Source of the DNA: Pyrobaculum ferrireducens
GTDB lineage: Archaea; Thermoproteota; Thermoprotei; Thermoproteales; Thermoproteaceae
DNA: 64,000 bases
Assembly: GCF_000234805.1 (NCBI RefSeq)
Contig: NC_016645.1
Span: 1,030,391 to 1,094,390, forward strand
Direction: 5' to 3'
In this document: piece after piece, positions 3,532 through 58,608 of the stretch
Layout: the number at the start of each line of letters is the position of its first letter
Numbering within the stretch: position 1 is the first letter of the stretch
Translations under genes and position numbers: made by a program
The notes under the pieces: model-generated
Seen by the model: only the letters and a program-made list of their open reading frames with translations
Databases searched by the model: none
What the model was told of the DNA's origin: nothing

Positions 3532-3565
3532 CCATCCAATCTTCATGAGGATAACGCTATTAGTG

Positions 3566-4888: not shown

Positions 4889-4900
4889 ACCCCACCTGGC

Positions 4901-5404
4901 TCACCTCTTTATGTGGAATTGACAATCCACCCGCCGCGCCCTCTGGTCAGGTAGAGGTCTGTCTACATACGCCTCCGGGTTTGAGCCGTTTTCTAAACAG
5001 CCGCCGATTGTCTCTGCTAGGCGAGTAGAGACGCCAGCCGGCGAGGCGCCCACAAGCTTGGCGTACTGAGTCATGGACACGGGCTCCTCCACTGGCTTGT
5101 CCCGGCGCCTGGCCCTGGAGAGGAGGGAAGGCTTCCTCGGCTCGGCGGAAGACCTCCTCTTGTTGAATGGGGGCTTGAAAACCTCGTAGAGCCAAGACTC
5201 CCACATCTCCGCCACCCGCCTCCTCCGCGTGTATGCCACCACGACGAACACATCAGCCCTCAGCCCCCTCTTCGCCGCAGAGGAGTGGCCCCTAATGTGC
5301 ATGTCGACGCGGTCGTAGTAGCCGTCCCGCTTCCCCACGCCCACATACGTCGCACGTCCCCGGCAATGGCCAGGTAGACGTAGTGGACAGCCCCACGTAT
5401 ACAT
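4901..5404 (-). CDS. GIY-YIG-like nuclease, N-terminus probably frameshifted
   Basis: A 167-residue basic protein. Residues 20-90 read like the core of a GIY-YIG nuclease: TYVGVGKRDGYYD as the YIG part, RVDMHIRGH as the basic strand, then WESWLYEVFKPPFNKR, with the family's usual Glu and Asn positions. The GIY strand is missing in this frame, but the -1-related frame directly upstream encodes VHYVYLAIAGD, which is exactly what should precede TYVG. A one-base indel near 5350-5365 is therefore likely. A helix-turn-helix-like end (MTQYAKLVGASPAGVSTRLAE) follows. ATG at 5404; a TTG three bases earlier is possible. Confidence 0.5.
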   Translation of the reverse strand: MYTWGCPLRLPGHCRGRATYVGVGKRDGYYDRVDMHIRGHSSAAKRGLRADVFVVVAYTRRRRVAEMWESWLYEVFKPPFNKRRSSAEPRKPSLLSRARRRDKPVEEPVSMTQYAKLVGASPAGVSTRLAETIGGCLENGSNPEAYVDRPLPDQRARRVDCQFHIKR

Positions 5405-5407
5405 CAA

Positions 5408-6023
5408 ACTTTAAAGCCAACTGCGGCATTCAACTACCCCATCTACATTTTTCCTGACCTTGCGCCGTACGTTTTTCCTGATTCAGAAAAAACATCTGAC
5501 GCAAGGCAAGGGAAAATGTATGACGTTTTTCTGCGGCGTCTGAGTAGATTTAAAACTGTCCAAGCGCTGTGACAATTGAAATAAGAAGGCGCCGAGGCCA
5601 TTTCCAAATCTAAAAAACTGGAACTGAAAAAGACGGAATCGACAAAACTTAACCGCCGTTCGTTGGGGATGTGTTTCTACGGTCATGGGCAAGCTGGCGC
5701 CCGCCCCGCCTCCCGCGAGGGCTCCGGGAGGCGAAACTGCGCTTATATTCGCACTCGCCGAAGGGGCGGCGCCGACCCTCCGGGCGGCCCCGCCCCGGGA
5801 GCCGCCGGCGATCCGGGGTCCTGTACCCCCCGCGCGGAGAGCAGAAACGGGGTGTAGACCTGTGCCGGTGGGGCTCTGAGATAGTACGCCACAGTAGCCT
5901 ATGCCAGAAAACAAGTCCAGAACCACAGCCGATTTGAACACATGCGCCGCATCCAACAGAATAAAGACGTTCGCCATGGCCAGCGGCAACGCCGCATCGG
6001 CCACGACTTCAGTAAAGAAAATG
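5408..6023. other. Gap with no intact gene; decayed island DNA
   Basis: About 600 bp between the GIY-YIG-like gene and the tRNA fragment. It contains a 75-bp imperfect inverted repeat (5445-5519), an AT-richer stretch (5520-5660) and a very GC-rich stretch (5690-5860). Reading frames exist on both strands, but none shows a family resemblance, a convincing promoter or normal composition. The minus strand has a short segment LDLFSGIG that recalls motif I of cytosine DNA methyltransferases, but nothing around it supports that reading. Confidence 0.6.
5445..5519. repeat. 75-bp imperfect inverted repeat
   Basis: The left arm begins ACATTTTTCC and includes CCTTGCG and CGTTTTTCCTGA. The right arm is its approximate reverse complement: TTCAGAAAAAAC, CGCAAGG, GGAAAATGT. 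The arms are about 37 bp each with almost no loop. It lies just upstream of the GIY-YIG-like gene. It could be a miniature transposable element, a recombination site or a hairpin transcript. Confidence 0.7.
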
Positions 6024-16047: not shown

Positions 16048-16240
16048 CCAGTCCCAGGTCAAGATAAACCCAGCGCTGACGGCGCAATCCGGGATTAAGA
16101 AACACGGCTTCAGGCACGTTCACGTCGACCACACCGCCATAAACTTCGACATCTCTAACAGCAACAAAAAGAGAAAACGTGGCACTAAGGGCGAGCAGGT
16201 GAGAACACAAAAGAAGACAACCAAAACGACTAGACCCCAT
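15938..16240 (-). CDS. Possible truncated secreted protein (doubtful)
   Basis: A 100-residue frame on the minus strand starting with a signal-peptide-like segment (CLLLCSHLLALSATFSLFVA) followed by beta-strand-like sequence similar in style to the extracellular part of the 15376 gene. It overlaps the 3' end of that gene by 110 bp, and no TATA box is visible within 30 bp. It may be a decayed relative of the neighbouring membrane regulator, or chance. The 264 bp between 16048 and the tRNA hold nothing else I can name. Confidence 0.2.
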   Translation of the reverse strand: MGSSRFGCLLLCSHLLALSATFSLFVAVRDVEVYGGVVDVNVPEAVFLNPGLRRQRWVYLDLGLVMTRHWPLCLVSLCLRDLSSQGPQRRVLSRRLFSDL

Positions 16241-16311
16241 CCCCCTCTGTCGTAAGCGCCCCTTAGTGAACAGGCAGGTAAGCTTAAAAATATTACACAG
16301 AATTGGAAATA

Positions 16312-16449
16312 GCCCCGGTAGCTCAGTCCGGTAAAGAGGAAATCTCCGGAGGAGCGGCGGGCTGCAGACCCGTAGGCTAGCAGTAGGCGGACGTCCCGTC
16401 AAGCCCCAGCGAGGGGGCTTGGGGCAAGGTTCAAATCCCGGCCGGGGCT
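16312..16449 (+). tRNA. tRNA with several introns, probably tRNA-Cys (GCA)
   Basis: The acceptor GCCCCGG/CCGGGGC has discriminator T (the cysteine identity base) and an encoded CCA to 16452. The D arm GCTC...GAGC contains about 17-18 extra bases (AAGAGGAAATCTCC region), an intron. The stem GCGGG/CCCGT with loop CTGCAGA gives anticodon GCA. About 15-17 extra bases follow before the variable loop, a probable second intron whose edges I cannot fix. The T stem CCG+GG pairs with CCCGG only after removing about 29 nt (TCAAGCCCC...GGGGCAA), matching the intron in tRNA-Thr(UGU). Confidence 0.7.
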
Positions 16450-16511
16450 CCACGTCCTCGTAGAACCTCTCCTTGTCTGTAACCTGTTGGTGTAACGTGA
16501 ACCAGCTTCGT

Positions 16512-16793
16512 CTATGGCTTTTCGCTTTTTAGTTGCTGTATTAACCGCTCTGCAAATGCTATGGCCTCTAGGGAATTTTTCAGCTCTATCTCGTTTTCTT
16601 TTTTCTGGCCGGAGCCTTTAACTAGGTAGGCTAGGCGTCTCGTTTTTGGGAACCACAAGAGATAGATCTCGTATCTGCCCACACGTCCGTTTATCCACTC
16701 TAAATAGCCGTTGGCCTCGCCTGCGCTGTCTACGGAGTCTAGCATCCTGGCCACCTCCGTGTGGAAGGATCCGATGAAGTGGAGGAGGTTCAC
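16512..16793 (-). CDS. Small hypothetical protein
   Basis: A 93-residue protein with no recognised family. It has a helical N-terminus (LLHFIGSFHTEVARMLDSVD), a central beta hairpin with many aromatics (RYEIYLLWFPKTRRLAYLV) and a helical C-terminus. Composition is normal for the genome. It stands alone between the tRNA and ppdK, reading away from ppdK's 3' end; an AT-rich stretch lies upstream at 16800-16815. The 178 bp between it and the ppdK stop hold no gene I can see. Confidence 0.45.
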   Translation of the reverse strand: MNLLHFIGSFHTEVARMLDSVDSAGEANGYLEWINGRVGRYEIYLLWFPKTRRLAYLVKGSGQKKENEIELKNSLEAIAFAERLIQQLKSEKP

Positions 16794-16971
16794 GGAGATT
16801 CTGAAAAAATTACTTTATTTTTGTACACCTCTCGCTTCTCACTTCGGCTTTCTGGCTTTTCTCCGGCGGGCCGCCGAATCTACAGACGTCTATATACGGC
16901 GCTAGTATCAGACACATGCTGGTTATGAAATTCTTTAGCCTAGTCCACATGTATGTACAGTGTGTATTATT

Positions 16972-19734
16972 TTAAATTGGTTTTTGATAGTGCTTATTTT
17001 GCCGGTTTAACACCGCGGCTTGGGCAGCGGCTAGCCTGGCTAGGGGTACTCTGAACGGGGACGCGCTGACGTAATCCACTTTTGTTTTGTGGAAGAAGTG
17101 TATAGATCTGGGATCGCCGCCGTGTTCCCCACATACGCCGACTTCTATAGATGGGTTTGCCTCTTTAGCTGTCGCTGCTGTTTGCTCCACTAATTTACCT
17201 ACGCCCTTTACGTCGATTGTTTCGAATGGATTGGCGTCTATTATCTTCAGGTCTAGGTACTGCGGTATGAATTTGTTCTCTGCGTCGTCGCGGCTAAAGC
17301 TAAACACGGCTTGCGTCAAGTCGTTTGTCCCGAAGCTTATAAAGTCTACGTGTCTAGCTATTTCGTCTATGGTGAGGCACGCCCTCACCGTCTCAACCAT
17401 GGTGCCAATCTTTACGTTTAACTTGACGCCGAAGCTCTCCTCCACGTCTCTAAGCGCCGGCATAATCGCCTTGTCCTTAACATAAACTATCTCCCGGACC
17501 TCGGAGACTTGCGGTATCATGATCTCCACCACCGGGCTAAGTCCCTCTTTCTTAAGCTCGGCGGCGGCCTCAAGTATAGCTCTGTTTAGGTAGTAGTAGA
17601 AGTCGGGATGAGTAACGCCAACTCTTACTCCCCTGTGGCCTAGCATTGGGTTAGCCTCTTGCAACGCCTTGATGCGTCTATACAACTTCTCGAGCTCCGC
17701 CGTGTCTTCTCCACGCATCTTCTTCTGATATATCTGCTCCAGCACCTCCTCAGGCTTGGGCAGAAATTCGTGTAGCGGCGGGTCGATTAGCCTCACGATG
17801 ACGGGAAGCCCATCCATTATCTTAAACACCTCCTTGAAATCTGCCTTCAACATTTTGTAGAGTCTTTCTAGGTGTGGCCTCCTCTCCTCAGGCGTCTCGG
17901 CGAGTATGATTTTTCTAAGCAACTCCAAACGCTCGGGCTTTCTAAACATCCTCTCAATCCTCAACAGACCAATGCCATGGGCGCCGAATTTCCTGGCAAT
18001 GGCGGCGTCCTCCGGCAGATCTGCGTTTGCCCTCACGCCGAGGCGTCTAAACTCATCAGCCCACCTAAGCAACTCCTCCAGCTCAGGTATTAACTCAGCC
18101 TCTATCGTGGGCACGACGCCGATGTACACACCGCCGGTGTGGCCGTCGATAGTTATCCAGTCGCCTTCGCGCACCACGTGGCTCCCCACTTTGAAGTACT
18201 TCTCCTCTTCGTGAATTTCAATAGCCTCAGCGCCAACCACCGCGGGTTTTCCAATAGCCCTAGCCACCACCGCCGCGTGGCTAGTCATGCCGCCCCTACT
18301 GGTCAAGACGCCTACTGCTGAGTAGAAGCCGTGCACATCGTCGGGCTTTGTCTCAACTCTAACTAATATAACTCTCCTGCCCTGGGCGGCCCACCGCACC
18401 GCGTCGTCTGGGTGGAAAACCACCTGTCCAGACACCGCGCCGGGGCTCGCCGGGAGGCCTTGGGCCACTGGCTGCGCCTTGGCCTTGGGATCGATACGTG
18501 GATACAACAACTGAAGCACGTGCTCTGGGCTTACGTAGAGCAAGGCCTCCTCCCTCGTGATGATGCCCTCCTTCGCCATATCCACAGCTGTCTTTATCCT
18601 GGCAAGAGCAGTCATCTTCGCGTTTCTAGACTGGAGGAAGTAGAGACGGCCCCTCTCAACAGTGAACTCCACGTCTTGGACGTCCTTATTCACCTTCTCA
18701 AGTAGCTTAACGCCGTTGTACAACTCGTCGTAGAGGTGGGGGAACCTCTTTCTAAACTCTTCAATATCCATCGGCGTCCTGATGCCCGCCACCACGTCCT
18801 CTCCCTGCGCCACTGGCAGGAACTCGCCGTAGAGCCTATTCTCACCCGTCGCCACGTCTCGGCTAAATACCACGCCGGTGCCCGAGTCCCAGCCCACGTT
18901 GCCAAAGACCATAGTCACCACGTTCACAGCCGTGCAGTCCGCGATATCTGGGGTAATTTTCTCAATAATGCGGTAAAAAATAGCACGTGGAGACATCCAC
19001 GACCTAAACACGGCCTTAACCGCAAGTTTTAACTGCTCCCAGGGATCCTGCGGGAAGCCTCCCCTCTCCCTCTTTATAATATCCTTGAAACGCTCAACGG
19101 CCTCCCTCAAACCCTCCAGCGGGACATCGGGATCGTCCTTCACCCCGTACTTCTTTTTAATCTCCTCCCAAGCCGCTGAAAACAACTTCTCGTCTATGGA
19201 AAGTACTATTTTGCCAAACATCTGTAAAAACCTTCTATAGGCGTCGTAGGCAAACCACTCGTTACCAGTCTGCTTCGCAAGCCCTTTGACTGTTTCGTCG
19301 TTTAGACCCAGGTTTAGAACTGTATCCATCATCCCGGGCATAGACACAGCGGCGCCGCTTCTCACAGACACAAGGAGGGGGTTGTCCCTATCCCCAAACC
19401 TCTTCCCCGTCTCCATCTCCAACTCCTTCATGTAGCTGACCACCTGATCCCATATCTCGCTTGGGAGATCCAAGCTGTCTATGACCGAGTGTAGCTTCTT
19501 GATAGCCTCGTCCCTCACCTCCGGGGGCGGGTTCTTCAAAAGGATGCCCTCTAGTTCAGAAATCTCGCTCCTCTTGGGCTCATAGAACTTCTTGCATGCC
19601 TCTGTCGTTATTATAAAGCCGGGTGGGACACGGAGGCCTAACTTCGTCATCTGAATAAGGCTGGCGCCCTTCCCCCCAAACAACTTCTTGTTTTTATAAT
19701 CAGCCTCTTTAAAACTGAACACATATTTCTGCAT
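16972..19734 (-). CDS. ppdK: Pyruvate, phosphate dikinase
   Basis: A 920-residue PPDK interconverting pyruvate, ATP and phosphate with PEP, AMP and pyrophosphate. The N-terminal ATP-grasp part has GGKGASLIQMTKLGL and VSVRSGAAVSMPGMMDT; the swivelling histidine domain has LTSRGGMTSHAAVVARAIG with the phosphorylated His; the C-terminal TIM barrel has GLLRIERMF, GHRGVRVG, EIMIPQVSE and FGTNDLTQ, ending with a catalytic-Cys motif GVCGEHGGDP. PPDK rather than PEP synthase follows from the PGMMDTVLNLG segment and overall layout. The role is likely gluconeogenic or reversible glycolytic. Confidence 0.95.
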   Translation of the reverse strand: MQKYVFSFKEADYKNKKLFGGKGASLIQMTKLGLRVPPGFIITTEACKKFYEPKRSEISELEGILLKNPPPEVRDEAIKKLHSVIDSLDLPSEIWDQVVSYMKELEMETGKRFGDRDNPLLVSVRSGAAVSMPGMMDTVLNLGLNDETVKGLAKQTGNEWFAYDAYRRFLQMFGKIVLSIDEKLFSAAWEEIKKKYGVKDDPDVPLEGLREAVERFKDIIKRERGGFPQDPWEQLKLAVKAVFRSWMSPRAIFYRIIEKITPDIADCTAVNVVTMVFGNVGWDSGTGVVFSRDVATGENRLYGEFLPVAQGEDVVAGIRTPMDIEEFRKRFPHLYDELYNGVKLLEKVNKDVQDVEFTVERGRLYFLQSRNAKMTALARIKTAVDMAKEGIITREEALLYVSPEHVLQLLYPRIDPKAKAQPVAQGLPASPGAVSGQVVFHPDDAVRWAAQGRRVILVRVETKPDDVHGFYSAVGVLTSRGGMTSHAAVVARAIGKPAVVGAEAIEIHEEEKYFKVGSHVVREGDWITIDGHTGGVYIGVVPTIEAELIPELEELLRWADEFRRLGVRANADLPEDAAIARKFGAHGIGLLRIERMFRKPERLELLRKIILAETPEERRPHLERLYKMLKADFKEVFKIMDGLPVIVRLIDPPLHEFLPKPEEVLEQIYQKKMRGEDTAELEKLYRRIKALQEANPMLGHRGVRVGVTHPDFYYYLNRAILEAAAELKKEGLSPVVEIMIPQVSEVREIVYVKDKAIMPALRDVEESFGVKLNVKIGTMVETVRACLTIDEIARHVDFISFGTNDLTQAVFSFSRDDAENKFIPQYLDLKIIDANPFETIDVKGVGKLVEQTAATAKEANPSIEVGVCGEHGGDPRSIHFFHKTKVDYVSASPFRVPLARLAAAQAAVLNRQNKHYQKPI

Positions 19735-19850
19735 ATATTACAGTTTTATTCCATTTTTAAATTTTTCTTTGCAATAACTAAATAACTAGTTTTATATTTA
19801 AGCGAGATATAATTTACTTAGATCTGCTGAATTAAGATAATTATCTATAA
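19735..19850. promoter_or_regulatory. AT-rich promoter region upstream of ppdK
   Basis: 116 bp of very AT-rich DNA between the ppdK start and the stop of the metallo-beta-lactamase gene. On the minus strand AATTTAAAAATGG lies about 25 bp before the ppdK ATG and is the likely TATA box. The rest, with repeated TTAT/ATAA runs, may hold regulator sites or the upstream gene's terminator. Confidence 0.5.
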
Positions 19851-20660
19851 TTATATTTTTCTCTCCCACTTACCTTCTTCGTCAATATAGACTAAACCCT
19901 CCCTTGACAACTTGGAGAGAACTGCACGCACCGTGGTCATGGTAAGCAACACGTTCTCCCACCCCCTCTCCCCACCTGTCTCCTTCAAGACCTTCACAGC
20001 CAGCGTGGTCACGTCCCCCGGCAACGCTGATTCCACAAGCCTCACGGCTCTCTCCGCCGCCGACTTGTTGATATCTAGAAGCTCCCCAATGCGTTTTCTA
20101 CTCCCCAAGACGGGGCCGTGCCCCATCACCAACGTCTCTGGGTCTATTTCTCTAATCTTGTCCAGCGACGCTATGAATAAATCCACGTCCATGAGGTACG
20201 GCACGCCGTACTTCTCTAGAACTTTCTCCCCGAAGACGGCGTCGCCGGCGTAAAGCAAGCCCTCTATGTAGTACCCCACGTGGCCAAAGGTGTGGCCCGG
20301 CAGAGGCACCACTTCGAAAGGCCCAACTTTATCGCCAGGCTTAACCACTGCGCTTACCTTTATATCTTCCCCCTTGTAAACTGCCCCCTCTGTATACACG
20401 CCGTGGGTAAAGAACAGCCGCGCCTTGACGCTGGCTACGAAAAGCTCCTCACCCCACGGCGCGTAGACCTCCGCCCCCTCCGGCACGGCAGTTAGGTGAT
20501 CTGCATGGAAGTGCGTCAGCAGGATCCGGGGCGTTCTCCCCACCGCCGAGAGTATCTCCGCGGCCCTCTCCTTCGGCTGACCTGGATCGACCACGTACTC
20601 CCCCACGATTAGAGTATTAGGCGAGCCTCTCAACAGCCTCACCCCCCTCCTAATCTCCAT
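19851..20660 (-). CDS. Metallo-beta-lactamase-fold hydrolase
   Basis: A 269-residue protein with the metal-binding motif THFHADHL (49-56), a second histidine in PLPGHTFGHVGYY (near 130), DAVF (near 150) and VMGHGP (near 200). Residues after 210 form a helical, winged-helix-like C-terminus (TTVRAVLSKLSREGLVYIDEEG). Such proteins include glyoxalase-II-like thioesterases and nucleases; the substrate is not deducible. The start ATG at 20660 has TATA-like ATACATTACTGG upstream. It is divergent from the DUF1028 gene. Confidence 0.8.
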   Translation of the reverse strand: MEIRRGVRLLRGSPNTLIVGEYVVDPGQPKERAAEILSAVGRTPRILLTHFHADHLTAVPEGAEVYAPWGEELFVASVKARLFFTHGVYTEGAVYKGEDIKVSAVVKPGDKVGPFEVVPLPGHTFGHVGYYIEGLLYAGDAVFGEKVLEKYGVPYLMDVDLFIASLDKIREIDPETLVMGHGPVLGSRKRIGELLDINKSAAERAVRLVESALPGDVTTLAVKVLKETGGERGWENVLLTMTTVRAVLSKLSREGLVYIDEEGKWERKI

Positions 20661-20707
20661 ATTTATGGAATCCAGTAATGTATTTATTTATGTGGCTGTA
20701 GCCGCGT

Positions 20708-21562
20708 GTGACATTCTCTATAGTGGCTACAGACGGCGTCGACGTAGGCGTCGCCGTGTCTTCAAAATTTGTCGCCGTAGGCGCGTTTGTACCCCACGTC
20801 GAGGCTTCTGTGGGTGCCGTGGCTACGCAGTGCTACGCTAATCCGCGGCTGGGCAAGCTAATACTGGCACTAATGAGGCAAGGCGTGCACGCTAGAGAGG
20901 CTGTGGAGAGGGCGGTGGCCCAGGACTCTGAGAGGGAGCTTAGACAGATAGGGGCTGTCGACGCCAGAGGCAACGCCTACGGCTTTACCGGCCGGCAGTG
21001 CCCCGAGTACGCTGGTCATGTCGTTGGTAGCGGCTACGTGGCTCTAGGCAACATCTTGGCGGGGCCGCAGGTGGTTGAGGCCATGGCTAAGGCCTTTGAG
21101 ACGCAGAGAGGGGAGCTGGTGGATAAGCTAATAGCCGCCTTAGAAGCCGGGGAGAGGGCGGGCGGAGACAGAAGGGGCAAGCAGTCGGCGGCGGTTGTTG
21201 TGCTAAGACCGGGAGGCGGCTACCTCGGCCTCACAGACGTGTACGTCGACATTAGGGTAGACGATCACCCGGAGCCCGTGGCGGAGCTCAAAAGGATATT
21301 CAAGATATGGGAGCTGACTCTACTCCAGAGAGACGACCCGAGAGACGTAGTGTTGAAAAAAGACGTGGCGCGGGAGGTGCAGGAAGCCTTGAGGCGGCTT
21401 GGGTTCTACAAAAAAGAGCCGACGGGGGTGTGGGATGAGGAGACTGAGAAAGCCTTCAGAGACTGGGCTGGCTACGAAAACTTTGAGAACAAGATAAGAG
21501 GCGACGACAAGATCTGGGGCTCCCTCTACCGATACCTCATAGAGGCGTCAAGAAGGAGTTAA
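20708..21562 (+). CDS. DUF1028 Ntn-hydrolase-like protein with PG-binding-like C-terminus
   Basis: A 284-residue protein of the DUF1028 family, N-terminal nucleophile (Ntn) fold: [20 protein letters not shown] at the start, [39 protein letters not shown], and [14 protein letters not shown]. Residues 215-284 ([20 protein letters not shown] and following) resemble the small helical peptidoglycan-binding module often attached to bacterial DUF1028. The activity of the family is unknown. GTG-type start at 20708 just downstream of an AT-rich gap. It converges with sfsA, overlapping by 15 bp. Confidence 0.85.
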
Positions 21563-22243
21563 AACCACAGGCAACTCGCCCACGTATCTAAGCCCCCACT
21601 TGTACATCTCTAGCTTAACGGCGTGGATCTCCACCCCGGCGCCGCGTGCCCTTACGAGGCTCTCGGCGAACCTCCTATCCATGCGCCAGTTGGGGGACAT
21701 CACCTCAGCCCTCTTTCTAAAGACGAGGAAGACAACGTGCGCCTCGTAACCCTCGGCGGCTGCCCTAGCCAGCTCCTCCATGTGCCTAGCCCCCCTCGCG
21801 GTCGGCGCGTCTGGGAACAAGGCCCTCCCAGACTCCTCCAGCGTCACCCCCTTTACCTCCACCAGCGCGGGCCTGCCGCCGGGCGACCTAAGCAACAGGT
21901 CGAAGCGGCCACCCCCGAAGACCGGCTCCCTCTTCTCCACCACGTAGCCTCTGAAAAGAAGCCCGCCCTCGACTAGCCACGCCGCCACTTTGTTATGTAT
22001 CGAAGAGTCGACAAGCACCAGCTCGTCGTCCAGCTCCACAGCCGTCAGATAGAAGTCGGTCTTCCCCCCGCTCTTCCTCCTCGCCCATATCTTCGCGCCT
22101 GGGAACAGCAACTCCCTCAATCTGCCTGGGTCGTGTATGTGGACAGACGCCTCCCTCCCCTCGATAAGCGCAACGCCGGCGAATCTGTTCAACCTCTTGA
22201 CGAAAATCCCCCACGAGTCGGGCGCCGGGAGGGGAAAATCCAT
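21548..22243 (-). CDS. sfsA: SfsA-family nuclease
   Basis: A 231-residue SfsA (sugar fermentation stimulation protein A), now known as a DNA/RNA nuclease family with a PD-(D/E)XK-like active site. Visible features are the N-terminal OB-like part with [15 protein letters not shown] and [12 protein letters not shown], and the nuclease core with [22 protein letters not shown] (Glu and Lys of the ExK) and [16 protein letters not shown]. The ATG at 22243 gives the family length; a frame beginning further upstream overlaps the divergent gene. Its biological role in archaea is not settled. Confidence 0.9.
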
Positions 22244-22268
22244 AAAAATAGACACATAGCCCATTTTA

Positions 22269-23249
22269 ATGTCATTCACCAGACTGAGGCTCCCCCTGCC
22301 GGGGATGGAGCTCGGCCACGTCAACGTCTACCTCGTCAAATGCAGTGACGGATACGGCTTGGTGGACGTGGGGCTCGCCACCTACGACTCCGCATTGGCT
22401 TTGTTAAGAGGGCTAAAGCAACTCGGCGTAAGGCCTGGGGAGATAACCAAGGTATTCGTCACCCACTTCCACGCCGACCATATAACACTGGCGCAGTTCC
22501 TCGCCGAGGTCTCGTCGCCGGATTTCCACATCGGCGAAGGCGAGATCAGCCGCGTAGCCTCCAGCTTCGACGACTTAGCGAAGATGTACGCAGAGGAGTA
22601 CAAGAGACACGGCGCGCCTGCAGAAGTCGCCGAGGCGTTCCTAAAAGTACACCCAATGTCCCGATTTAGAAAGTCGTTTGAAGACGTGTGGAGACTCCAG
22701 TGGAGATCTGTAAGAGACGACGAAGGCCTCGACTGCGGCCTAAGAGCCATCTCCACGCCGGGCCACACCCCTGGACACACGGTCTACGCCGCAGCGCACG
22801 GAATCTTCACCGGCGACCACGTCCTGCCCAAGATAACGCCAAACATATCGTGGTACCCAATTCCGGGGTTCAACCCGCTGAAAGAGTACCTAAAAAGCCT
22901 GAAGAAAGTAGCTACAAACAAAAGAGGCTACCCAGCCCACGGAGATGAGATAGGCAACCTCGCCTTGCGGACCGAGGAGCTGGTTAGACACCACGAGGAG
23001 AGGCTAAGAGAAGTCATGGCCGTGCTGAGGGAGCCCATGACCACCTACCAAGTAGCTCAGAAAATCAGTTGGGACGCCGGACCATTCGAACAGTTCGACG
23101 TATATAACAAAATCTTCGCAATAGGCGAGGCATACAGCCACCTACTCTACCTAGAAGAGGCGGGTCTTGTGAGGCGCGTTGAGAAAGACAAGGTGTATTG
23201 GCTACCCGCCGAACGGCGGGATAATCTGCAAAACATCCCCCTCCCTTAG
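22269..23249 (+). CDS. Metallo-beta-lactamase-fold protein with C-terminal winged helix
   Basis: A 326-residue hydrolase. The metal motif is THFHADHI (65-72); further ligands lie in [12 protein letters not shown] and IFTGDHVLP, and the late histidine in GYPAHGDE. Residues 245-326 form the winged-helix tail found in LACTB2-like members ([16 protein letters not shown]...[20 protein letters not shown]). Human LACTB2 is an RNA endonuclease, but thioesterase activity is equally possible. ATG at 22269, only 25 bp from the divergent sfsA start. The last 48 bp overlap the convergent ubiquitin-like gene. Confidence 0.82.
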
Positions 23250-23486
23250 AGGAGTTTTTAAACCATTTAAAAAATCTATAGAGCGTCCGTTAATCCATAT
23301 ATCGTGCATCGGAATAACCTCCTCACCCCTCAGCAACCTCCCCTTCAGACCTGGAAATCTCCGCTCCAGCTCGTCAAGCGCCTCCCCCACCGTGGCGCCC
23401 TCGCCCAGCTCAAGCTTCAGCGTAATAACGTCATAACTCTTAAGGCCAAAATACGCAGGTCCAAAAATCTTAACAACAATCCTCAT
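23202..23486 (-). CDS. MoaD/ThiS-type ubiquitin-like protein
   Basis: A 94-residue beta-grasp protein ending in Gly-Gly (LQIIPPFGG), as in MoaD, ThiS and archaeal SAMP proteins, which carry sulfur as a C-terminal thiocarboxylate or are conjugated to lysines. The family pattern is visible: VVKIFGPAYFGL at the start, LGEGATVGEALDELERRFPG in the helix region, VIPMHDIWINGRS and [12 protein letters not shown] at the end. No E1-like or MoaE gene is beside it. Its 3' end overlaps the convergent metallo-beta-lactamase gene by 48 bp, an unusually deep overlap for two conserved genes. Confidence 0.85.
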   Translation of the reverse strand: MRIVVKIFGPAYFGLKSYDVITLKLELGEGATVGEALDELERRFPGLKGRLLRGEEVIPMHDIWINGRSIDFLNGLKTPLREGDVLQIIPPFGG

Positions 23487-23524
23487 AAAGTAAACAAATC
23501 AAGACTCTTAATATCTGTTAACTC

Positions 23525-23673
23525 ATAGTAGAAAGATGTGGAGGGTAGGAACCCCGGAGGGGCTCGGCTGACGACGCGGTTCTGGGCCGTACGCGGGGCT
23601 CAGCCCCAGAGCGCTCTTCCGGCAAGCGAAAGCCGCGCCGCCGGCACCTCCATGCACCAGCCCCGATCGGCGT
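23525..23673 (+). other. GC-rich leader of the PaREP2b-like locus
   Basis: About 150 bp of GC-rich DNA with several short inverted repeats (for example CGGGGCTCAGCCCC), lacking a TATA box close to the following start. An overlapping open frame of 74 codons exists but shows Arg/Pro/Ala-rich composition typical of GC-rich non-coding DNA. My recollection is that similar leaders precede other PaREP2 copies in Pyrobaculum; this needs a genome comparison. Confidence 0.35.
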
Positions 23674-24681
23674 GTGAAAGCTGGCGTAGAGCCAACCCCC
23701 CACATCCAGCCGCTCTCCGGCGAGCCGGACTGGGCCGGGGTGGCGCGGGAGATGGCTTTTGAAAACGCTTCTCTGACGCGGTTCTTCCTCTCGTGGCTGT
23801 CGGCGTATCTATGGGCGGCGGAGGGCGACAAGAGGGCCGTGGCCGACTTCCTCACCGCCGCGGTGATGGGAGACGGGAGTATACAGACGGCTGTTAGGAG
23901 GGAGGAAAGCGGCGTGGAGCTGGCTGGCGATGTGCGGCTGACGGTGGGCAGATTCTCGGCGAAGAGGAAGAAAAAAGAGGAGGCTGGGGCCATAACCCAC
24001 ATACACAAGGCGGCGCTGGCGCTGGCCGTTCTGAAGGCGGCTGGGCACGAGCCGGAGAGGGTGTACGCCAGGGCAAGGGGGGAGAGTCGGTGGTTCGAGC
24101 TGGAGTGGCGCATCGACGCGGCCAGGGGCTTTCTGTCCAACGCGTCTCTCTGGCTGTACGCGCCGGAGCTGGCCGGCGGAAACGACGAGATAAGGGTTAA
24201 GTACTCCAGGGCCCTGGAGGCCGTGGGCGTGGAGGCCCACATAAAGGACTTCACCGCGGAGGGCAAGAGGCCGAGGGCCAGGCTGGTGGTGAGGCTGGGC
24301 GGAGATACAGCTGAGTTCTCAATACGCCTGCAGAAAGGCAACATGGTAGAGCTTCGCTTCGGCACAACCAGCCGCGAGGAGGCCGAGCGTAGGGCGGCGG
24401 TGCTTAGGGCTGTGGGGGTGGGGGCCGATGTGAAGAGGACCTACCACAAATCCCGCAACCGTGACCAGTGGTATATAGTCGTCTCGACAAACGTCCTGGC
24501 CGCAGAGTCTGTGCACGAGGAGGTTAGAAAGGCAGTGGTGGAGTTCCTTCAGCGGTGCAGAGAGGCTGGCGCCCTCGAAGAGAAGACGTGTAGACGCCTA
24601 GCCGCAAAGATCGAGAGGGGCGTGCCGGAGTGGGGAGATATAAGATTCTCCCTATGGCTGAAAAAGACGGCGCCGTGGTAG
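23674..24681 (+). CDS. PaREP2b-like protein, N-terminal part (frame interrupted)
   Basis: A 335-residue fragment of what appears to be a Pyrobaculum PaREP2b repeat protein. Residues 60-75 read DFLTAAVMGDGSIQ, a GDG motif resembling a LAGLIDADG box; later parts alternate Arg-rich helices and strands (EEAERRAAVLRAVGVGADVK). The reading frame ends in KKTAPW. One base earlier in phase, the downstream frame begins KDGAVVVHYKPRD, so the two halves join exactly at the run CTGAAAAAGACGG. The start GTG at 23674 is uncertain. PaREP2b function is unknown. Confidence 0.55.
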   Translation: MKAGVEPTPHIQPLSGEPDWAGVAREMAFENASLTRFFLSWLSAYLWAAEGDKRAVADFLTAAVMGDGSIQTAVRREESGVELAGDVRLTVGRFSAKRKKKEEAGAITHIHKAALALAVLKAAGHEPERVYARARGESRWFELEWRIDAARGFLSNASLWLYAPELAGGNDEIRVKYSRALEAVGVEAHIKDFTAEGKRPRARLVVRLGGDTAEFSIRLQKGNMVELRFGTTSREEAERRAAVLRAVGVGADVKRTYHKSRNRDQWYIVVSTNVLAAESVHEEVRKAVVEFLQRCREAGALEEKTCRRLAAKIERGVPEWGDIRFSLWLKKTAPW

Positions 24682-25418
24682 TACACTACAAACCCAGAGA
24701 CCCGGAGTCCTACAACAAGGCTTTGGAGCTTCTGCGGGGGCTGGGCATGAGGGACACTTGCGAAGGCGGCTGGTGCCTCGTCCACTTCACGGCGAAGGAG
24801 CCGAGAAGAGGCGAGGAGGGCTACGTCTACATCACCGCCGACGGCCTCAGGTACATCGGCTGGCTCGCCCTACACGGAGAGGGAGAGGCGAAGACGAGAG
24901 CACAGTGGTTGAAGGAAATGCTCTTGAAGGAAGCCGAGGCAAAGGGTGTGGAGGTGCGTAGGCGGCTGGAGGAATACTTCCGGGAGGGAGAGCAGTGGGG
25001 CTCCGTGGAGCTACCGATAGAGAAGGAGGTCGAGGTTGAGGGCAGGAGGGTGAAGGTACGCGTCGAGGAAGTCGAGGCATGGAGAGAGAAGGGCGAGAAG
25101 AAGGAGCACCTAGTTGTCAGGATAAGAGCAAAGGTGGTTGAAGGAAACAGCGAAGTAGCGGTAGAGAAGGAGGCCAGGTTCTTCAAAAGCGGCGGCGTGA
25201 TTAAGGGCTATATAATTATACACGCCAGCGCCGAGGGTGGGCCGGATGCGGACTACGCGAGGACGGAGGCGGTGTTAATGGCGCTGGGCGTGGAGTCGTG
25301 GACGAGAGAGGAGAGGCAGATACACCTCACAGGCGGCGCCCTAGACGCCTTCATGCGCCTAGAGCCGGTGTGCGCCGCCCTGGGCATATGCAGAAAACTT
25401 AGAAACACACATCTGTAA
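24630..25418 (+). CDS. PaREP2b-like protein, C-terminal part (frame interrupted)
   Basis: A 262-residue frame overlapping the preceding one by 52 bp. From residue 10 it shows the repeat-family sequence as I remember it: YKPRDPESYNKALELLRGLG, CLVHFTAKEP, YVYITADGLRYIGWLALHGE, then a charged helix AQWLKEMLLKEAEAKG, a beta-rich part and a C-terminus LDAFMRLEPVCAALGICR. It probably has no start of its own (the GTG at 24630 lies inside the first half) and is expressed only after a frameshift, or not at all. The 120 bp between it and tRNA-Leu show no gene. Confidence 0.55.
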   Translation: MGRYKILPMAEKDGAVVVHYKPRDPESYNKALELLRGLGMRDTCEGGWCLVHFTAKEPRRGEEGYVYITADGLRYIGWLALHGEGEAKTRAQWLKEMLLKEAEAKGVEVRRRLEEYFREGEQWGSVELPIEKEVEVEGRRVKVRVEEVEAWREKGEKKEHLVVRIRAKVVEGNSEVAVEKEARFFKSGGVIKGYIIIHASAEGGPDADYARTEAVLMALGVESWTREERQIHLTGGALDAFMRLEPVCAALGICRKLRNTHL

Positions 25419-25535
25419 AATACGGAAGTAGTCTGGCCCGGTTCAAGGCTTGCTCTCCACCCTATCTGAAGCGTCCAGCTCCTACTTCCCTTATCGATCG
25501 CGGCAAACCCGCTTGTTTAATTTCCAATAAAATAG

Positions 25536-25639
25536 TGGTGCGGGGGGTGGGATTTCTGGGCGGCGCCGCCTGAACCCACGCAGGCCTACGCCACAGGGTC
25601 TTAAGCCCTGCCCCTTTGACCTGGCTCGGGCACCCCCGC
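25536..25639 (-). tRNA. tRNA-Leu (UAA) with T-loop intron
   Basis: On the minus strand the 5' acceptor GCGGGGG starts at 25639 and pairs with CCCCCGC, followed by A73 (25539) and an encoded CCA (25538-25536). The anticodon stem encloses the loop CTTAAGA, anticodon UAA, and a long variable arm follows as in leucine tRNAs. The T stem GTGGG/CCCAC encloses 23 bases instead of 7, so a 16-nt intron (GC-rich, containing GGCGGCGCCGCC) sits in the T loop. CTTAAAATT lies about 25 bp upstream as TATA box. Confidence 0.88.
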
Positions 25640-25838
25640 CCAGTGCCAAATGGATACAGAATTTTAAGTTTTTCACTAGTGGGATCGCGGTGGATCTCAT
25701 CGAGACGCCCAGAGCACGCCCCGTCCTAATCTTTAATGGTAAGGGACGTTTCTAATATCCCTAAGTAGAGTTTATTGAGAAGAGGATTGTTAAGTGGAAA
25801 TAGGGAAGACCTCACCGATTTGTTAATACTCTTCTGCC

Positions 25839-26006
25839 CTATCCACATGCACATCCCCCACCTGTGCTACCCATGACGATTTTGTTCTCGGCCATGAGTT
25901 TCGACCAGCATTCTGGACACACCAGAGCGGGGCCTCTGTCTTTTATGTTGGCCTCTAGAAGTGGGGTGTCCTCCCTGCCGCAGATCGCGCATCTATAGAC
26001 GGCCAT
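25839..26006 (-). CDS. Small zinc-ribbon protein
   Basis: A 55-residue protein with two CxxC pairs: CAICGRE at residues 6-9 and CPECWSK near residue 31, plus a C-terminal GGGCACG tail. The spacing fits a treble-clef or rubredoxin-like zinc knuckle. Function unknown. The ATG at 26006 gives a compact protein and has an AT-rich TTTTATTTTC box about 25 bp upstream; a much longer frame through 26387 overlaps the gamma-glutamyltransferase gene and is not real. The 200 bp between it and tRNA-Leu hold only short frames. Confidence 0.65.
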   Translation of the reverse strand: MAVYRCAICGREDTPLLEANIKDRGPALVCPECWSKLMAENKIVMGSTGGGCACG

Positions 26007-26041
26007 GTGTGTATATGGGTGCGAAAATAAAATTTTTCCCG

Positions 26042-27430
26042 CTATAGCCCCAGCGCCAATCCATCTCCTCTTATGTCTGCCACCGCGGCGACGCCGCCGT
26101 GCCTCTTTGCCACAAGCGCCGCGACGCCCAATCTGCTGGGGTATTTCACAACTGTGACCCCGGGGCCCCTTTCCCACCCCTCCTCTGCCTGGGCCTCCCA
26201 CCCTCCTGTCCATATGAAGCGCGGGGCCCAGACGGCGGCGCGGGGGTCCATGCCGTACCAGACGACGTTTTGTATCAGCTGGGCGTATATAGCCGGTCTG
26301 TAGTGGCCCGCGCTTGCTCCAAGTGCGTAGATCTCTCCTCCGCGCTCCATGACCACTGCCGAGAGCGTGTGGGCGGGGCGCCTCCACGGGGCGGCTTTAT
26401 TCAGCCCCTTCGTGAAGTCGCCTGCTCTGTTGTTGAATGTCATGCCCCACTTCGGATCTGTAAAGCCCGACCCAAAGGGGTAGTAGAGGGACTGGATGGC
26501 GGAGACAACGAGCTCCCCGTCCCCCGCGGCTAGGTACGTGGTTCCGGGCGTCGGCTCGGGGGCCTCTGCCTCCCCCAGCTCGAGGCGCCCCGCCAGTATG
26601 TCGCCTAGCGGCACCTCGCCGTCGTGTAGATAGGCGTCTCTCGCCCAGTGGGCCTTTCTCAAAGCCGCGATGGTATTTCTCAGCCTGGCGTAGCTAAAGG
26701 CCCCCTCCGCCCTCTCCGCCAGCTTAACTGTCAGCAGTACGGCGAACCCCAGGGAGGGGGGCGGGGCCTCGTATATAGTCCAGTCGCCGTATGTTATATA
26801 CAGCGGCGGCTTGACCTCCGGCCTATATCTAGCAAAATCCTCAACCTCGAAATACCCGTGTAGCAGATCCTTGGCGATTTCCTCGTAGAAGACGTGGGGG
26901 CCCTCTCTAACTGCCCTCCACAGCTTGAGAAGGGGCTCAATTCTGTAGGGCGCGCCGGGCGCCGCTGGGAGGCTTAGGTAGACGCCTCCGCCCGGGTCGG
27001 CATCCAGCACGTCTCTATACTTCGCCACAGCGGAGGCTAGGGAGGGGTGCAGGGTGGCCTCCTCCATGAAGCTGACCGCGATGTCCACCACCCTCTCCCA
27101 TGACAACACACCATGTCTCCTATGGAGCTCGTGGAGCCCGGCCAGGTAGCCGGGCACAACCGCCGACGGAAGGCCTCTGCGCGGCGGGGCTTCTGGCACC
27201 CGGCGCGGGGCCCAGCCAAGCCCAAGCACGGCCTCTGTCTTCCCCCCGTCGTGCACCAGGGCTAGGAAGTCGCCTCCGACGCCGCCTAGATGGGGCAGTG
27301 TGTATGTCAAAACAGCGGAGGCCGCCGCGGCGGCGTCTGCGGCGTTTCCGCCAGCCTTATAGGCCTCGTAGCCGGCTCTAGTTGCTAGGTAGCTCTCGGT
27401 GGCTATGGCGAAGCGCCTTCCGAGATACAT
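26042..27430 (-). CDS. Gamma-glutamyltransferase family protein
   Basis: A 462-residue Ntn hydrolase of the gamma-glutamyltranspeptidase family. The N-terminal part has AGYEAYKAGGNAADAAAAAS and HLGGVGGDFLALVHD, the family's signature; the autocleavage site with its catalytic Thr is PGTTYLAAGDGELV (near residue 295); then IQSLYYPFGSGF and MTFNNRAGDF follow. It is shorter than secreted bacterial enzymes (about 550) and has no signal peptide, so it is cytosolic. Archaeal members may act on gamma-glutamyl peptides or cephalosporin-like amides; the substrate is open. The start ATG at 27430 is close to a TATA-like TTTTTAAATAG. Confidence 0.85.
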   Translation of the reverse strand: MYLGRRFAIATESYLATRAGYEAYKAGGNAADAAAAASAVLTYTLPHLGGVGGDFLALVHDGGKTEAVLGLGWAPRRVPEAPPRRGLPSAVVPGYLAGLHELHRRHGVLSWERVVDIAVSFMEEATLHPSLASAVAKYRDVLDADPGGGVYLSLPAAPGAPYRIEPLLKLWRAVREGPHVFYEEIAKDLLHGYFEVEDFARYRPEVKPPLYITYGDWTIYEAPPPSLGFAVLLTVKLAERAEGAFSYARLRNTIAALRKAHWARDAYLHDGEVPLGDILAGRLELGEAEAPEPTPGTTYLAAGDGELVVSAIQSLYYPFGSGFTDPKWGMTFNNRAGDFTKGLNKAAPWRRPAHTLSAVVMERGGEIYALGASAGHYRPAIYAQLIQNVVWYGMDPRAAVWAPRFIWTGGWEAQAEEGWERGPGVTVVKYPSRLGVAALVAKRHGGVAAVADIRGDGLALGL

Positions 27431-27468
27431 TATCTATTTAAAAATGTGCCGTATATCAACTTGAACCC

Positions 27469-27528
27469 CCGGTTCCCCGCCCGCCTGACGCACCCGCGTC
27501 ACGGGTGTGGGCGTGAGGGCGGAGCCGG
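27469..27528. other. Long GC-rich hairpin between guaA and the GGT gene
   Basis: CCGG at 27469 pairs with CCGG at 27525, and the intervening arms pair nearly throughout, including CCGCCC with GGGCGG and a closing CACCCG/CGGGTG with loop CGTCA. The stem is about 27 bp with small bulges. It lies in a 116-bp gap between two minus-strand genes. It could be a structured leader of the gamma-glutamyltransferase mRNA, a processing site or a small RNA; an ACA follows on the plus strand at about 27541. Confidence 0.5.
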
Positions 27529-27546
27529 TAGGGCCGACCGCACATC

Positions 27547-29064
27547 TCAACATGGCTCTATTGTCGAGGGGGGTTTGGACGTAATGGCGTAGGTCACCAT
27601 GGTTACCTCGGGGATTTCTGAAGTTATCCTGCTGGATATCTTCTCGAGGACTTCGTAAGGCACTCTCGACCAGTCGGCCGTCATGGCGTCTTCGCTTTCT
27701 ACAATTCTTACCGTCACCACGTACCCCTCGGCACGTCTATCCCCCTTTACCCCCACCCACTTGTCGTCGCCGACTACGGCAAAGGCTTGCCACACCTTTC
27801 TCAAGACGCCGGCCCTCGCCAGCTCCTCCTCTACTATCTTTGTGGCTTTTCTCACAATTGCCAGCTTTTCTCTGGTAAAGGGTCCTACCACCCTCACCGC
27901 GAGGCCGGGGCCGGGGAAGGGCTGTCTGTAAACCACCTCGTCCGGCAACCCGAGGGCCTTCGCAATTTTTCTAACCTCGTCTTTGTAAAAATCCCTAAGC
28001 GGCTCCACCAGCTCAAGTTTAAACCATGGAGGCAGGCCGGCGACGTTGTGGTGGCTTTTTATCTTGTCCGCTCCCTTTACCGCCCCGCTTTCCACAACGT
28101 CGGGGTACAGAGTGCCCTGTGCTAGATACCTGGCGTCTCTGATGCCAGAGACGACTTCGGTAAAGATCTGGGCAAACGTCTCGCCGACGATGCGCCTCTT
28201 TTCTTCACAGTCGGCTACCCCCTCGAGCTTTTCTAGAAAGCGCCCCTTCGCGTCGACGTATATCACGTCTATGCCTATGGATCTCAGCAGAGCCACGGCC
28301 TTCTCAGGCTCCCCCTCTCTAAAGAGACCGTGGTCTACGAAGACCGCCTTGGCCCGACTCCCCACGGCCTTGTGCACCAGCACTGCGGTGACTGTGCTGT
28401 CTACCCCACCGCTGACGGCTACAATCACCTGCCCTTCCCTTACTCTTTCTCTTATCTCCTCGACAATCCGGGTAATGTGGTCCTCGGGCCTCCAGCTCTC
28501 CTTAACTCCGGCTATTCTTCTGGCGAAGTTTTCCAGCAACAAGGCGCCTTTAGCCGTGTGGTTTACCTCTGGGTGGAACTGCACCCCGTATATATGCCCT
28601 TTCCTCATCGCAGCTATGTAGCCGTTTTCGCTTACCGCCAGGATTTCAAAACCAGGCGGCGGCTCCTCTACGTAGTCGCCGTGGCTCATCCAGACAACCT
28701 CCTCGTCGCCCCACCCCTCAAGCAGGGGGTCTCTGGCCACCACCTTCACGAGGGTTCTGCCGTATTCGCCCTTGCCGCGCGCCACCCTCCCCCCCATTTT
28801 CTTGGCTATTAGCTGGTGGCCGTAGCATATGCCAAGGACGGGTTTGCCTAGCTCAAATATCTCCGTGGGGACATCTGGCGACGGCGACTCGTAGACGGAG
28901 CTGGGGCCGCCGGATAGTATCACCGCCTTTACTTCCCCCTCCCTTGCCTTTTCCACCGCGTTTTCCGGCGTTGTTATTTCCGCGTATACCCCGGCGTCCC
29001 TCACCCTCCTTGCGATTAAGTGCGCATACTGGCCGCCGAAGTTAACCACCAGGATCTTCTCCAC
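27547..29064 (-). CDS. guaA: GMP synthase (glutamine-hydrolysing), single chain
   Basis: A 505-residue GMP synthase. The class I glutamine amidotransferase domain comes first (GICYGHQL with the nucleophilic Cys near residue 78, and FHPEVNHT with catalytic His/Glu near 165), then the PP-loop synthetase domain with SGGVDSTV near 220, FVDHGLFREGE, and the C-terminal dimerisation domain (FPGPGLAVRV, ending RITSEIPEV...PSTIEPC). It converts XMP to GMP. Many euryarchaea split the two domains into separate genes; here they are fused as in bacteria. It follows pus10 on the same strand with a 27-bp gap. Confidence 0.96.
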   Translation of the reverse strand: MEKILVVNFGGQYAHLIARRVRDAGVYAEITTPENAVEKAREGEVKAVILSGGPSSVYESPSPDVPTEIFELGKPVLGICYGHQLIAKKMGGRVARGKGEYGRTLVKVVARDPLLEGWGDEEVVWMSHGDYVEEPPPGFEILAVSENGYIAAMRKGHIYGVQFHPEVNHTAKGALLLENFARRIAGVKESWRPEDHITRIVEEIRERVREGQVIVAVSGGVDSTVTAVLVHKAVGSRAKAVFVDHGLFREGEPEKAVALLRSIGIDVIYVDAKGRFLEKLEGVADCEEKRRIVGETFAQIFTEVVSGIRDARYLAQGTLYPDVVESGAVKGADKIKSHHNVAGLPPWFKLELVEPLRDFYKDEVRKIAKALGLPDEVVYRQPFPGPGLAVRVVGPFTREKLAIVRKATKIVEEELARAGVLRKVWQAFAVVGDDKWVGVKGDRRAEGYVVTVRIVESEDAMTADWSRVPYEVLEKISSRITSEIPEVTMVTYAITSKPPSTIEPC

Positions 29065-29091
29065 TGGCTCATGAATGTGGCTGTTAAAAAA

Positions 29092-30336
29092 CTATTCAAC
29101 TGCCAAGACGTCTAGTTCCAGGACTTCTAAGTATGTGTTTAAAATTTCAGAGACGCTGGGTTTCGTCCTGCCGCCGTCTCCGTGGATGAACTCCTTGACG
29201 TAGAGGCCGCCTTGGCACCTGACGTATAGCTCAAACACGTGGGGGGACACGAGTCTCCACGCCAACTCGTAGACCATCCTAACCCTCTTCTTCCTTGGGC
29301 TCAACCTCTTTATTCTCCTGGGCGTGAGCTGGGTTACCGTCTTCCCAGACAGCTCACCAAGCTTGTTGAGCTCCTCGGCGGAGAGCTCCCTCTCTGAGAG
29401 TACAAGCGCCCGGTAAAGCTTTACGTCTGTCTTCGCCTTTTCCTTCAGCCGCCTAACCTCCTCCCTAGTGGTAAAGGTGCTGGGGATGAAGATGACGTCG
29501 TCGTCTTTAAGCGGAGGCACGGAGCCGCGGTACTTTACCGGTTGCTTTACCTCCACCACGAGTTGTCTGCCGGTGCCCAGCATTCTTGCGTCGCTGTCCT
29601 CCCTACCCGAGACGTGGACGACGTGCTCGCCTCCGCCAAATACGTCTTTTACATATGCAAGCTTCTCGGTAAGGGTTGTCTTTACATCTCCAAATTTCTT
29701 TGCCTGCGACACGCGGCGGCTAAGCTTTAGATAGACGCCCCCTATCAACACCGGGTTTCTCTCGACCGAGGCTTTGCCGGTGACGAGGTCGATTCTTACC
29801 ACGACATTTGGCCTAAGTTTATCTACACGCTTACCGGTAAGATGTCTCAAAAGCTCTTTACCAATCCGCCTATTTATCTCGTGCTTAATTGACTCGCCGG
29901 TCGTGATTAGAAACTTCTTAACCACCTGAGACTCCCGGTCAAGCACCTCCCTCGGAATAGTTGTACCAACCGCGAAGCTGTTGAAATCAACTTCCGACAG
30001 TAGGGGGAGCGCCGCGTCTGCATATTTCTCCACCTCCGTGAGGAGGCCGCCGCATATGTAGCAACTCTCCTCCTCCACCTTAATCCCTACGCTTGCCAGA
30101 AACCTTCTTGTCGGCTTGTGTACCTTTGCCAGCGCCGTGAGGTCCCTTACGACGTCTTTTCCCTTTCTGTAATCGTTGACAAGCGTCATGTGGAGTATTG
30201 TCTTAATCGCGATCCCCCTCTCCGCGTTCTCCACGCCGTGGCCAAGCTGGGCGAAGAGCCGGCCTAGGCACGAGTCGCAGAGCGGGTACTCTCTAATAAC
30301 CTCTAGAGCTTTGTCAAGTATCTCCACGGAGGCCAA
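29092..30336 (-). CDS. pus10: tRNA pseudouridine synthase Pus10
   Basis: A 414-residue Pus10, which makes pseudouridine 54 and 55 in archaeal tRNA. The N-terminal THUMP-like part carries two CxxC pairs (YPLCDSCLGRLF near 18-26; ESCYICGGLL near 90-97) that bind zinc. The catalytic C-terminal part contains GREDSDARMLGTGRQLVVEV with the catalytic Asp, PVKYRGS, and the end LYVRCQGGLYVKEFIHGDGGRT. It lies directly downstream of a TrmY-like gene (9-bp gap), whose product would methylate pseudouridine 54, so the two likely form one modification module. Confidence 0.93.
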   Translation of the reverse strand: MASVEILDKALEVIREYPLCDSCLGRLFAQLGHGVENAERGIAIKTILHMTLVNDYRKGKDVVRDLTALAKVHKPTRRFLASVGIKVEEESCYICGGLLTEVEKYADAALPLLSEVDFNSFAVGTTIPREVLDRESQVVKKFLITTGESIKHEINRRIGKELLRHLTGKRVDKLRPNVVVRIDLVTGKASVERNPVLIGGVYLKLSRRVSQAKKFGDVKTTLTEKLAYVKDVFGGGEHVVHVSGREDSDARMLGTGRQLVVEVKQPVKYRGSVPPLKDDDVIFIPSTFTTREEVRRLKEKAKTDVKLYRALVLSERELSAEELNKLGELSGKTVTQLTPRRIKRLSPRKKRVRMVYELAWRLVSPHVFELYVRCQGGLYVKEFIHGDGGRTKPSVSEILNTYLEVLELDVLAVE

Positions 30337-30345
30337 ACCTAGTGG

Positions 30346-30825
30346 CTATATAACTATTTGCATACCTCTTAGCAATCTGTCCGTCGTTATGTTAACAACC
30401 ACGACTTGGTGATGGGGCGGCAGCGCCCCGATATTCAAGCCGCAGTCGGGCTTTATTCCCGCCGCCTCCAGCTCTATTACGTAGGTATAGGGCGGCTTGG
30501 GGAGGCAGCTAGTGACTTGAGATGGGCCCACCACGACGCCAGCTGTAAGGTCTCTACTGCCCTTCTTAACCACGACGCCCTCTTGACGCCCTTGAGAAAA
30601 GGCCTTCTTTAGGAAGCCTATTGCCGACTCTTCGTCTGGGAATAGTCTCTTTACCCTCTCGCCTACTATCTTTACCGCCTTATCAACATCCCTTAGGTAG
30701 AAGACAGCCTCTGCGTCTTTCCTGACGCCGTTTGACACCAGCAACGCGGCAACGAGTATTTTGGCGTGTAGGTGAGGCTCCGCCTGGAACTTCGACGTGG
30801 AGGTGGTGATTAGGAATCTCCTCAC
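30346..30825 (-). CDS. TrmY-like SPOUT methyltransferase (DUF358)
   Basis: A 159-residue protein similar to TrmY, which methylates N1 of pseudouridine 54 in tRNA. The match is clearest in ALLVSNGVRKDAEAVFYL and KRLFPDEESAIGFLKKAF; the late GxxxG-type knot region reads VVGPSQVT and GLNIGALPPHHQVVVVNI. It is shorter than euryarchaeal TrmY (about 200). ATG at 30825 overlaps the ffh stop by 4 bp, and pus10 follows after 9 bp. The adjacency with pus10, which makes the substrate, supports the call. Confidence 0.72.
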   Translation of the reverse strand: MRRFLITTSTSKFQAEPHLHAKILVAALLVSNGVRKDAEAVFYLRDVDKAVKIVGERVKRLFPDEESAIGFLKKAFSQGRQEGVVVKKGSRDLTAGVVVGPSQVTSCLPKPPYTYVIELEAAGIKPDCGLNIGALPPHHQVVVVNITTDRLLRGMQIVI

Positions 30826-38376: not shown

Positions 38377-38452
38377 AAAGCCAAAACTGATACCGCTATA
38401 AAAATTTGAAAGTGCGCAATACCGCCACAAGCTTTTTCATCGAATAGAAAGG

Positions 38453-38537
38453 CGCCGGGGGTGGGATTTGAACCCACGCCCCCGAACGGGGACGGGCTTA
38501 GCAGGCCCGCGCCTTGGACCAACTCGGCCACCCCGGC
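38453..38537 (-). tRNA. tRNA-Ser (GCU)
   Basis: On the minus strand GCCGGGG pairs with CCCCGGC, followed by G73; no CCA is encoded. The anticodon stem encloses CTGCTAA (anticodon GCU). The variable arm (CCCCG TTCG GGGGC) is long, as in serine tRNAs, and the T arm has TTCAAAT. No intron. It lies just upstream of the secreted protein operon on the same strand. Confidence 0.92.
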
Positions 38538-58464: not shown

Positions 58465-58518
58465 TAGGGCGGTCATTTAACTGATTTAAAAATATTCGGC
58501 AGACTATTTTTCACATAT

Positions 58519-58567: not shown

Positions 58568-58608
58568 ATTAGAAGCAAAGTTTATATCTTGCTACATATA
58601 CTTGCCCA

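Follow-up and report, generated by a model that had tools for sequence, protein, structure and literature searches.

A split PaREP2b gene of Pyrobaculum ferrireducens in a tRNA-Leu-associated insert, probably broken by contraction of an A-run

The one proven case of archaeal -1 frameshifting is the fucA1 gene of Saccharolobus solfataricus, with an overlap of 40 bases in the account given in PMC8211752. The PaREP2b gene reported here resembles fucA1 as described there in having overlapping ORFs offset by -1 across an A-run and full-length relatives in which the run differs by one base. However, fucA1 carries the heptamer A-AAA-AAT, rare codons and a stem-loop in that account, whereas the gene in the window (the whole 64,000-nt stretch analyzed, G000:C1:1030391-1094390, from a genome of 2,467,972 bases) has G-AAA-AAG and no unusual fold. 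The P. oguniense genome paper (PMC3558965) refers to PaREP2b genes as putative transposons. Like this Pyrobaculum repeat family, the gene is multi-copy and both of its halves score above the PF07775 cut-off, but this copy is split by one base. To the family as presented in that paper, the data reported here add a putative link to LAGLIDADG-like folds and to tRNA genes; in the PaREP2b/PF07775 literature, PMC3558965 was the only match and no paper on a PaREP2b-tRNA link was found.

The surroundings of the gene have their own precedents. For the tRNA-Thr of Caldiarchaeum, the gain of an intron together with a mobile element is described in PMC3293823, and the locus resembles this 1.8-kb element, as presented there, in combining a small insert, a displaced tRNA fragment and the (here putative) gain of a tRNA intron. 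However, the Caldiarchaeum element is reported to encode a predicted recombinase and none was recognized in the window insert; also, unlike the situation described there, two tRNA-Leu genes of the window genome have one putative intron in common. A role of tRNA introns in guarding tRNA genes against integrating elements has been proposed by Randau and Soell (work cited in both PMC4390854 and PMC3218864).

Both halves of the split gene match the Pfam family PaRep2b (PF07775), with 28.5 and 26.7 bits versus a curated cut-off of 20.4 (Table 1). The two ORFs overlap by 52 nt, and the initial annotation was right in placing them in frames offset by -1 across the A-run; its 250-residue continuation after the -1 step also holds, being counted from the GAC at 24666, the codon that opens a 250-codon run in the second frame. 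However, it had taken the run for a slippery site of the A-AAA-AAG type, and the codons in the zero frame are CTG AAA AAG, which makes the heptamer of the window G-AAA-AAG instead. Moreover, the short second A-run alters the C-terminal end from RKT-stop to RKLRNTHL-stop.

Table 1 Coordinates of the split PaREP2b gene, the insert that holds it and the adjoining tRNA-Leu(TAA), as positions in the window
Feature	Position	Strand	Remarks
Left boundary, attL-like	23534..23550	.	Decayed copy of the tRNA-Leu 3' end; 12/17 bases as in the right copy (by eye)
tRNA-Met-like relic, intron-bearing type	23551..23640 (approximate limits)	-	Joined to the tRNA-Leu 3' end
PaREP2b upstream ORF	23674..24681	+	335 aa, terminus ...SLWLKKTAPW-stop
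PaREP2b downstream ORF	24630..25418	+	262 aa; candidate starts GTG 24630, ATG 24654
Break point G-AAA-AAG	24660..24666	+	Five A at 24661-24665; in-frame relatives one base longer
Second A-run	25393..25396	+	4 A versus 5 in eight related copies
Insert, right part	25419..25535	.	Common to the 8-kb insert of G003
Right boundary	25536..25552	.	17-nt direct-repeat core TGGTGCGGGGGGTGGGA = tRNA-Leu 3' end
tRNA-Leu(TAA) with T-loop insert	25537..25639	-	ARAGORN calls the gene in G003, which lacks the insert, but not in the window
16-nt T-loop insert, putative intron	25556..25571	-	Register +/-1

In a search of 41 genomes, relatives of the upstream half were found in 8 and of the downstream half in 9, chiefly in the window's own genome (G000) and in the close genome G003. 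Twenty-eight stretches were fetched, the window copy included, and 26 rows were printed for the junction, L104 and L105 being dropped as non-aligning there; 24 copies were readable in both halves at the junction, and copies from the distant genomes G006, G008 and G018 were excluded from the base-by-base reading. A single frame passes through the junction in 22 of the 24 readable copies, and because of this the frame break is more than a matter of chance; the two broken copies are that of the window and L084. The relatives follow a pattern of a CTG-like codon, six bases and a GAC-like codon. In L094, L097 and L101 the six bases are all A (CTG-AAA-AAA-GAC; CTGAAAAAAGAC), the window reading CTGAAAAAGAC, so that the window copy is one base short. 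The comparison of the A-run across PaREP2b copies, suggested by the initial annotation, thus favors a simple deletion.

The second broken copy, L084, belongs to the same genome (G000:C1:435900-438400) and is interrupted at the same A-run; it too lacks one base there and is open elsewhere, and its junction reads TTG AGA AAA AAG, a classical A-AAA-AAG in the zero frame. A programmed signal shared by both copies would be a rival reading of this common break. However, the upstream halves of the two copies differ strongly (48% identity), and because of this we regard the breaks as separate events, in which an A-rich codon pair contracted twice independently.

Constraint in both halves is similar to that of intact copies, so the claim that the gene shows no long-term decay, made earlier from its clean frames, stands. 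For the downstream half, dN/dS between the window and 14 intact copies ranges from 0.14 to 0.23, the median of the 91 intact pairs being 0.22. The upstream half gives 0.34-0.57 versus an intact-pair median of 0.375, which suggests that it would be, if anything, slightly relaxed. Also, residues invariant among the intact copies are changed in the window at 3/66 and 4/81 positions, where the corresponding leave-one-out counts for the remaining copies are 0-6 and 0-5. With both halves constrained in this way, either the break would be young relative to the divergence of the copies or the halves would still be in use, and the data fit both. G003 has no ortholog of the window insertion against which to date the break. 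Regarding assembly quality, about 59 kb of the window aligned with the syntenic 100 kb of G003, with 22 indels; six of the frame-shifting kind fall in ORFs of at least 100 aa (greedy set), and three are shorter in the window and lie at ORF ends. Six frame-shifting indels in such an alignment suggest that the assembly is not generally error-prone; a general homopolymer error is not evident, although an undercall could still have occurred locally.

The split is most probably a recent one-base contraction of the A-run in one PaREP2b copy within a tRNA-inserted element. In this case, polymerase slippage on the run would have left the gene one base shorter, and because many other PaREP2b copies exist, there would be little or no selection against the break; the expected product would be a truncated protein of 335 aa, with translation of the downstream ORF weak at most, through re-initiation or rare slippage. 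Of the "mutation or programmed -1 shift" proposed by the initial annotation, the first part is thereby upheld by the copies that read through in one frame, the three with six A among them. Nonetheless, some findings count against a mutation: the layout is like that of fucA1, with its overlap and its A-run, L084 is broken at the same run with a classical heptamer, and the downstream half shows no measurable relaxation, which would be expected under continued translation as well. These same points, namely the second break at A-AAA-AAG and halves that are both open and constrained, together with a zero-frame stop soon after the A-run and the proof of -1 frameshifting in one crenarchaeal gene in the account of PMC8211752, would favor a programmed -1 shift at G-AAA-AAG that yields full-length PaREP2b beside the truncated form. 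However, this second part of the proposal is very improbable. The first base of the heptamer breaks the XXX of X-XXY-YYZ, and full re-pairing would be possible for just one of the two tRNAs; moreover, G at the last position is excluded by the rule as quoted in the review PMC8211752. Also, the downstream RNA has a z-score of -0.06, with 95/200 shuffles equally good (nested folds only), no in-frame relative requires a shift, the split layout is not conserved beyond L084 as the sole other copy sharing the break, and a second A-run of the gene (25393) is one A short as well.

Homopolymer undercalls are a known artefact on some platforms, and two A-runs of the window gene, and that of L084, are each one A short, as would be seen if the runs had been undercalled in sequencing or assembly and the real gene were intact. 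However, runs of four and five A are short, and very few such differences from G003 appear in the conserved genes of the window, which makes this explanation unlikely. Finally, the downstream half could be a separate gene product, made by re-initiation at one of the candidate starts and cooperating with the upstream chain; the start codons within the overlap and the retained constraint would agree with such a functional fission. Nonetheless, the break lies inside a stretch (~RFSVxLxKDGAVxVxY) conserved in 14/14 aligned intact copies and not between domains, and the two-gene organization occurs in no relative except the equally broken L084, so that a fission seems hardly credible.

The split gene is part of a 2.0-kb insert that adjoins the tRNA-Leu(TAA) 3' end and is flanked by copies of that end. 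In G003, the counterparts of window positions 16056-23550 (97.3%) and 25571-30586 (96.7%) lie side by side, so that this genome represents the empty site; its tRNA-Leu(TAA) is intact and has no T-loop insert (L114 7969-8055). The direct repeats, of which the left one is decayed, and the empty site qualify the window insert as tRNA-integrated. We infer that it would be a reduced version of an integrative element that entered the tRNA 3' end through site-specific recombination. Pfam showed no integrase among the two ORFs of this insert and the five of a related insert in G003, and Rfam gave no match near the gathering score in 22500-26500. By eye, the first ~50 nt of the right part of the insert weakly resemble a tRNA 5' half, and a decayed tRNA after the PaREP2b stop is likewise suggested by eye only.

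The ends of the window insert recur in contig C3 of G003 at 58490-58625 (85%) and 66314-66561 (85%), where they flank an insert of ~8 kb at tRNA-Leu(CAA) with a 17-nt repeat on either side. This site is empty in G000, the G003 segments 55537-58503 and 66466-70547 being adjacent there. Since the TAA gene is filled in G000 and the CAA gene in G003, each being empty in the other genome, the element family has used two distinct tRNA-Leu genes as sites. The 8-kb insert (L178 3490-11470, G003 C3:58490-66470) contains a PaREP2b with an internal deletion and encodes a protein of 1141 aa that matches N6-methylase and Eco57I and resembles type IIG restriction-modification. Elsewhere in the window, at 38446-38509, G003 is ~8 kb longer at tRNA-Ser(GCT); here 64 bases of the tRNA region align on each flank, a pattern that a further tRNA-integrated element would be expected to leave. 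Also, ~2.5 kb of the window (3480-6019) is unmatched in the syntenic region of G003, which has ~1.2 kb of other sequence there.

Regarding the encoded proteins, a GDG motif (aa 66-68 of the upstream protein) is invariant in 15/15 aligned sequences, and residues 216-272 match LAGLIDADG_3 with 25 bits versus 22.5; this match is found at E ≤ 0.01 in 7 of 15 PaREP2b copies. Because related-locus searches of genome contigs and viral contigs gave no relatives, the structure of the upstream protein was modeled from the single sequence, with a mean pLDDT of 51.8, better at 185-315 and poor elsewhere. The best 17 structural matches of this model are LAGLIDADG proteins, at modest Z values of 5.2-4.4. 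PaREP2b proteins thus look LAGLIDADG-like, resembling homing endonucleases such as I-DmoI and I-Tsp061I in the profile match and in the top structural matches (best Z 5.2). However, the Z values are modest, the model is of low quality beyond 185-315, and a nuclease role would be a prediction. A PDB profile search returned three weak matches (E 0.024-0.035), no homing endonuclease among them; Foldseek against the PDB gave no match at E ≤ 0.001, PHROGs none for six proteins and NCBIfam nothing credible. As a separate observation, PaREP2b is also found as a C-terminal module in giant proteins; one of these (L156 1886-15811, G000:C1:2336886-2350811) has 4,642 aa and an N-terminus that looks membrane-like, other giant open frames having 4,633 and 4,677 aa. 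Pfam gave no match at E ≤ 0.01 on the 4,642-aa protein, although its PaREP2b end does score in the genome search.

Several PaREP2b genes end just upstream of tRNA genes. In G000 and G003, 6 of 34 such ends (L150, L155, L165, L167, L168 and L176) have a same-strand ARAGORN tRNA 22-26 bp past the stop, a frequency whose p-value assumes 46 tRNA genes and independent copies, which the copies are not. Three more ends are followed by tRNA-like sequence as judged by eye (at 288 and 447 kb of G000 and at 915 kb of G003), and 25/34 have no such intact tRNA. Several of the tRNA-adjacent ends have a common tail, CTTAAAAACAC...GTAAAGGGG, which could hold the tRNA promoter. At L168 (G003 C1:912.5-915.3 kb), two tRNA-Thr(GGT)-like genes are seen, each after a PaREP2b end, the second with an altered 5' end.

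In G000, the identical 16-nt T-loop insert occurs in tRNA-Leu(TAA) and tRNA-Leu(CAA) (G000:C1:2354006-2354026), beside the attachment core, and is absent from the other three tRNA-Leu genes. Among 30 tRNA loci read, these two carry it and 27 do not, L128 ending too early for the T-loop to be read; moreover, a pattern search of 13 genomes with up to 2 mismatches returned the same two inserts only. The five tRNA-Leu genes of G000 have a common 3' half, and because of this the target sequence alone fails to explain the two carriers. The insert folds into a short GGCG/CGCC hairpin and is probably an intron. A link between it and the element would be a hypothesis drawn from a small number of events. 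That the putative intron was gained through the element or kept because of it, PaREP2b being part of a tRNA-seeking mobile system, is a tentative and rather doubtful extension of this idea.

The frame break would then be an ordinary event, and its setting at a tRNA-Leu attachment site is the more interesting aspect of the locus. For PaREP2b, a large family without known function, a fold and a genomic habit are suggested. Moreover, the locus offers an occupied and an empty site, with and without the putative intron, in two close genomes, which makes the guard proposal directly testable. If the link with the element holds, the putative intron would keep the element from re-integrating, or from being excised and exchanged, whereas splicing would keep the tRNA working.
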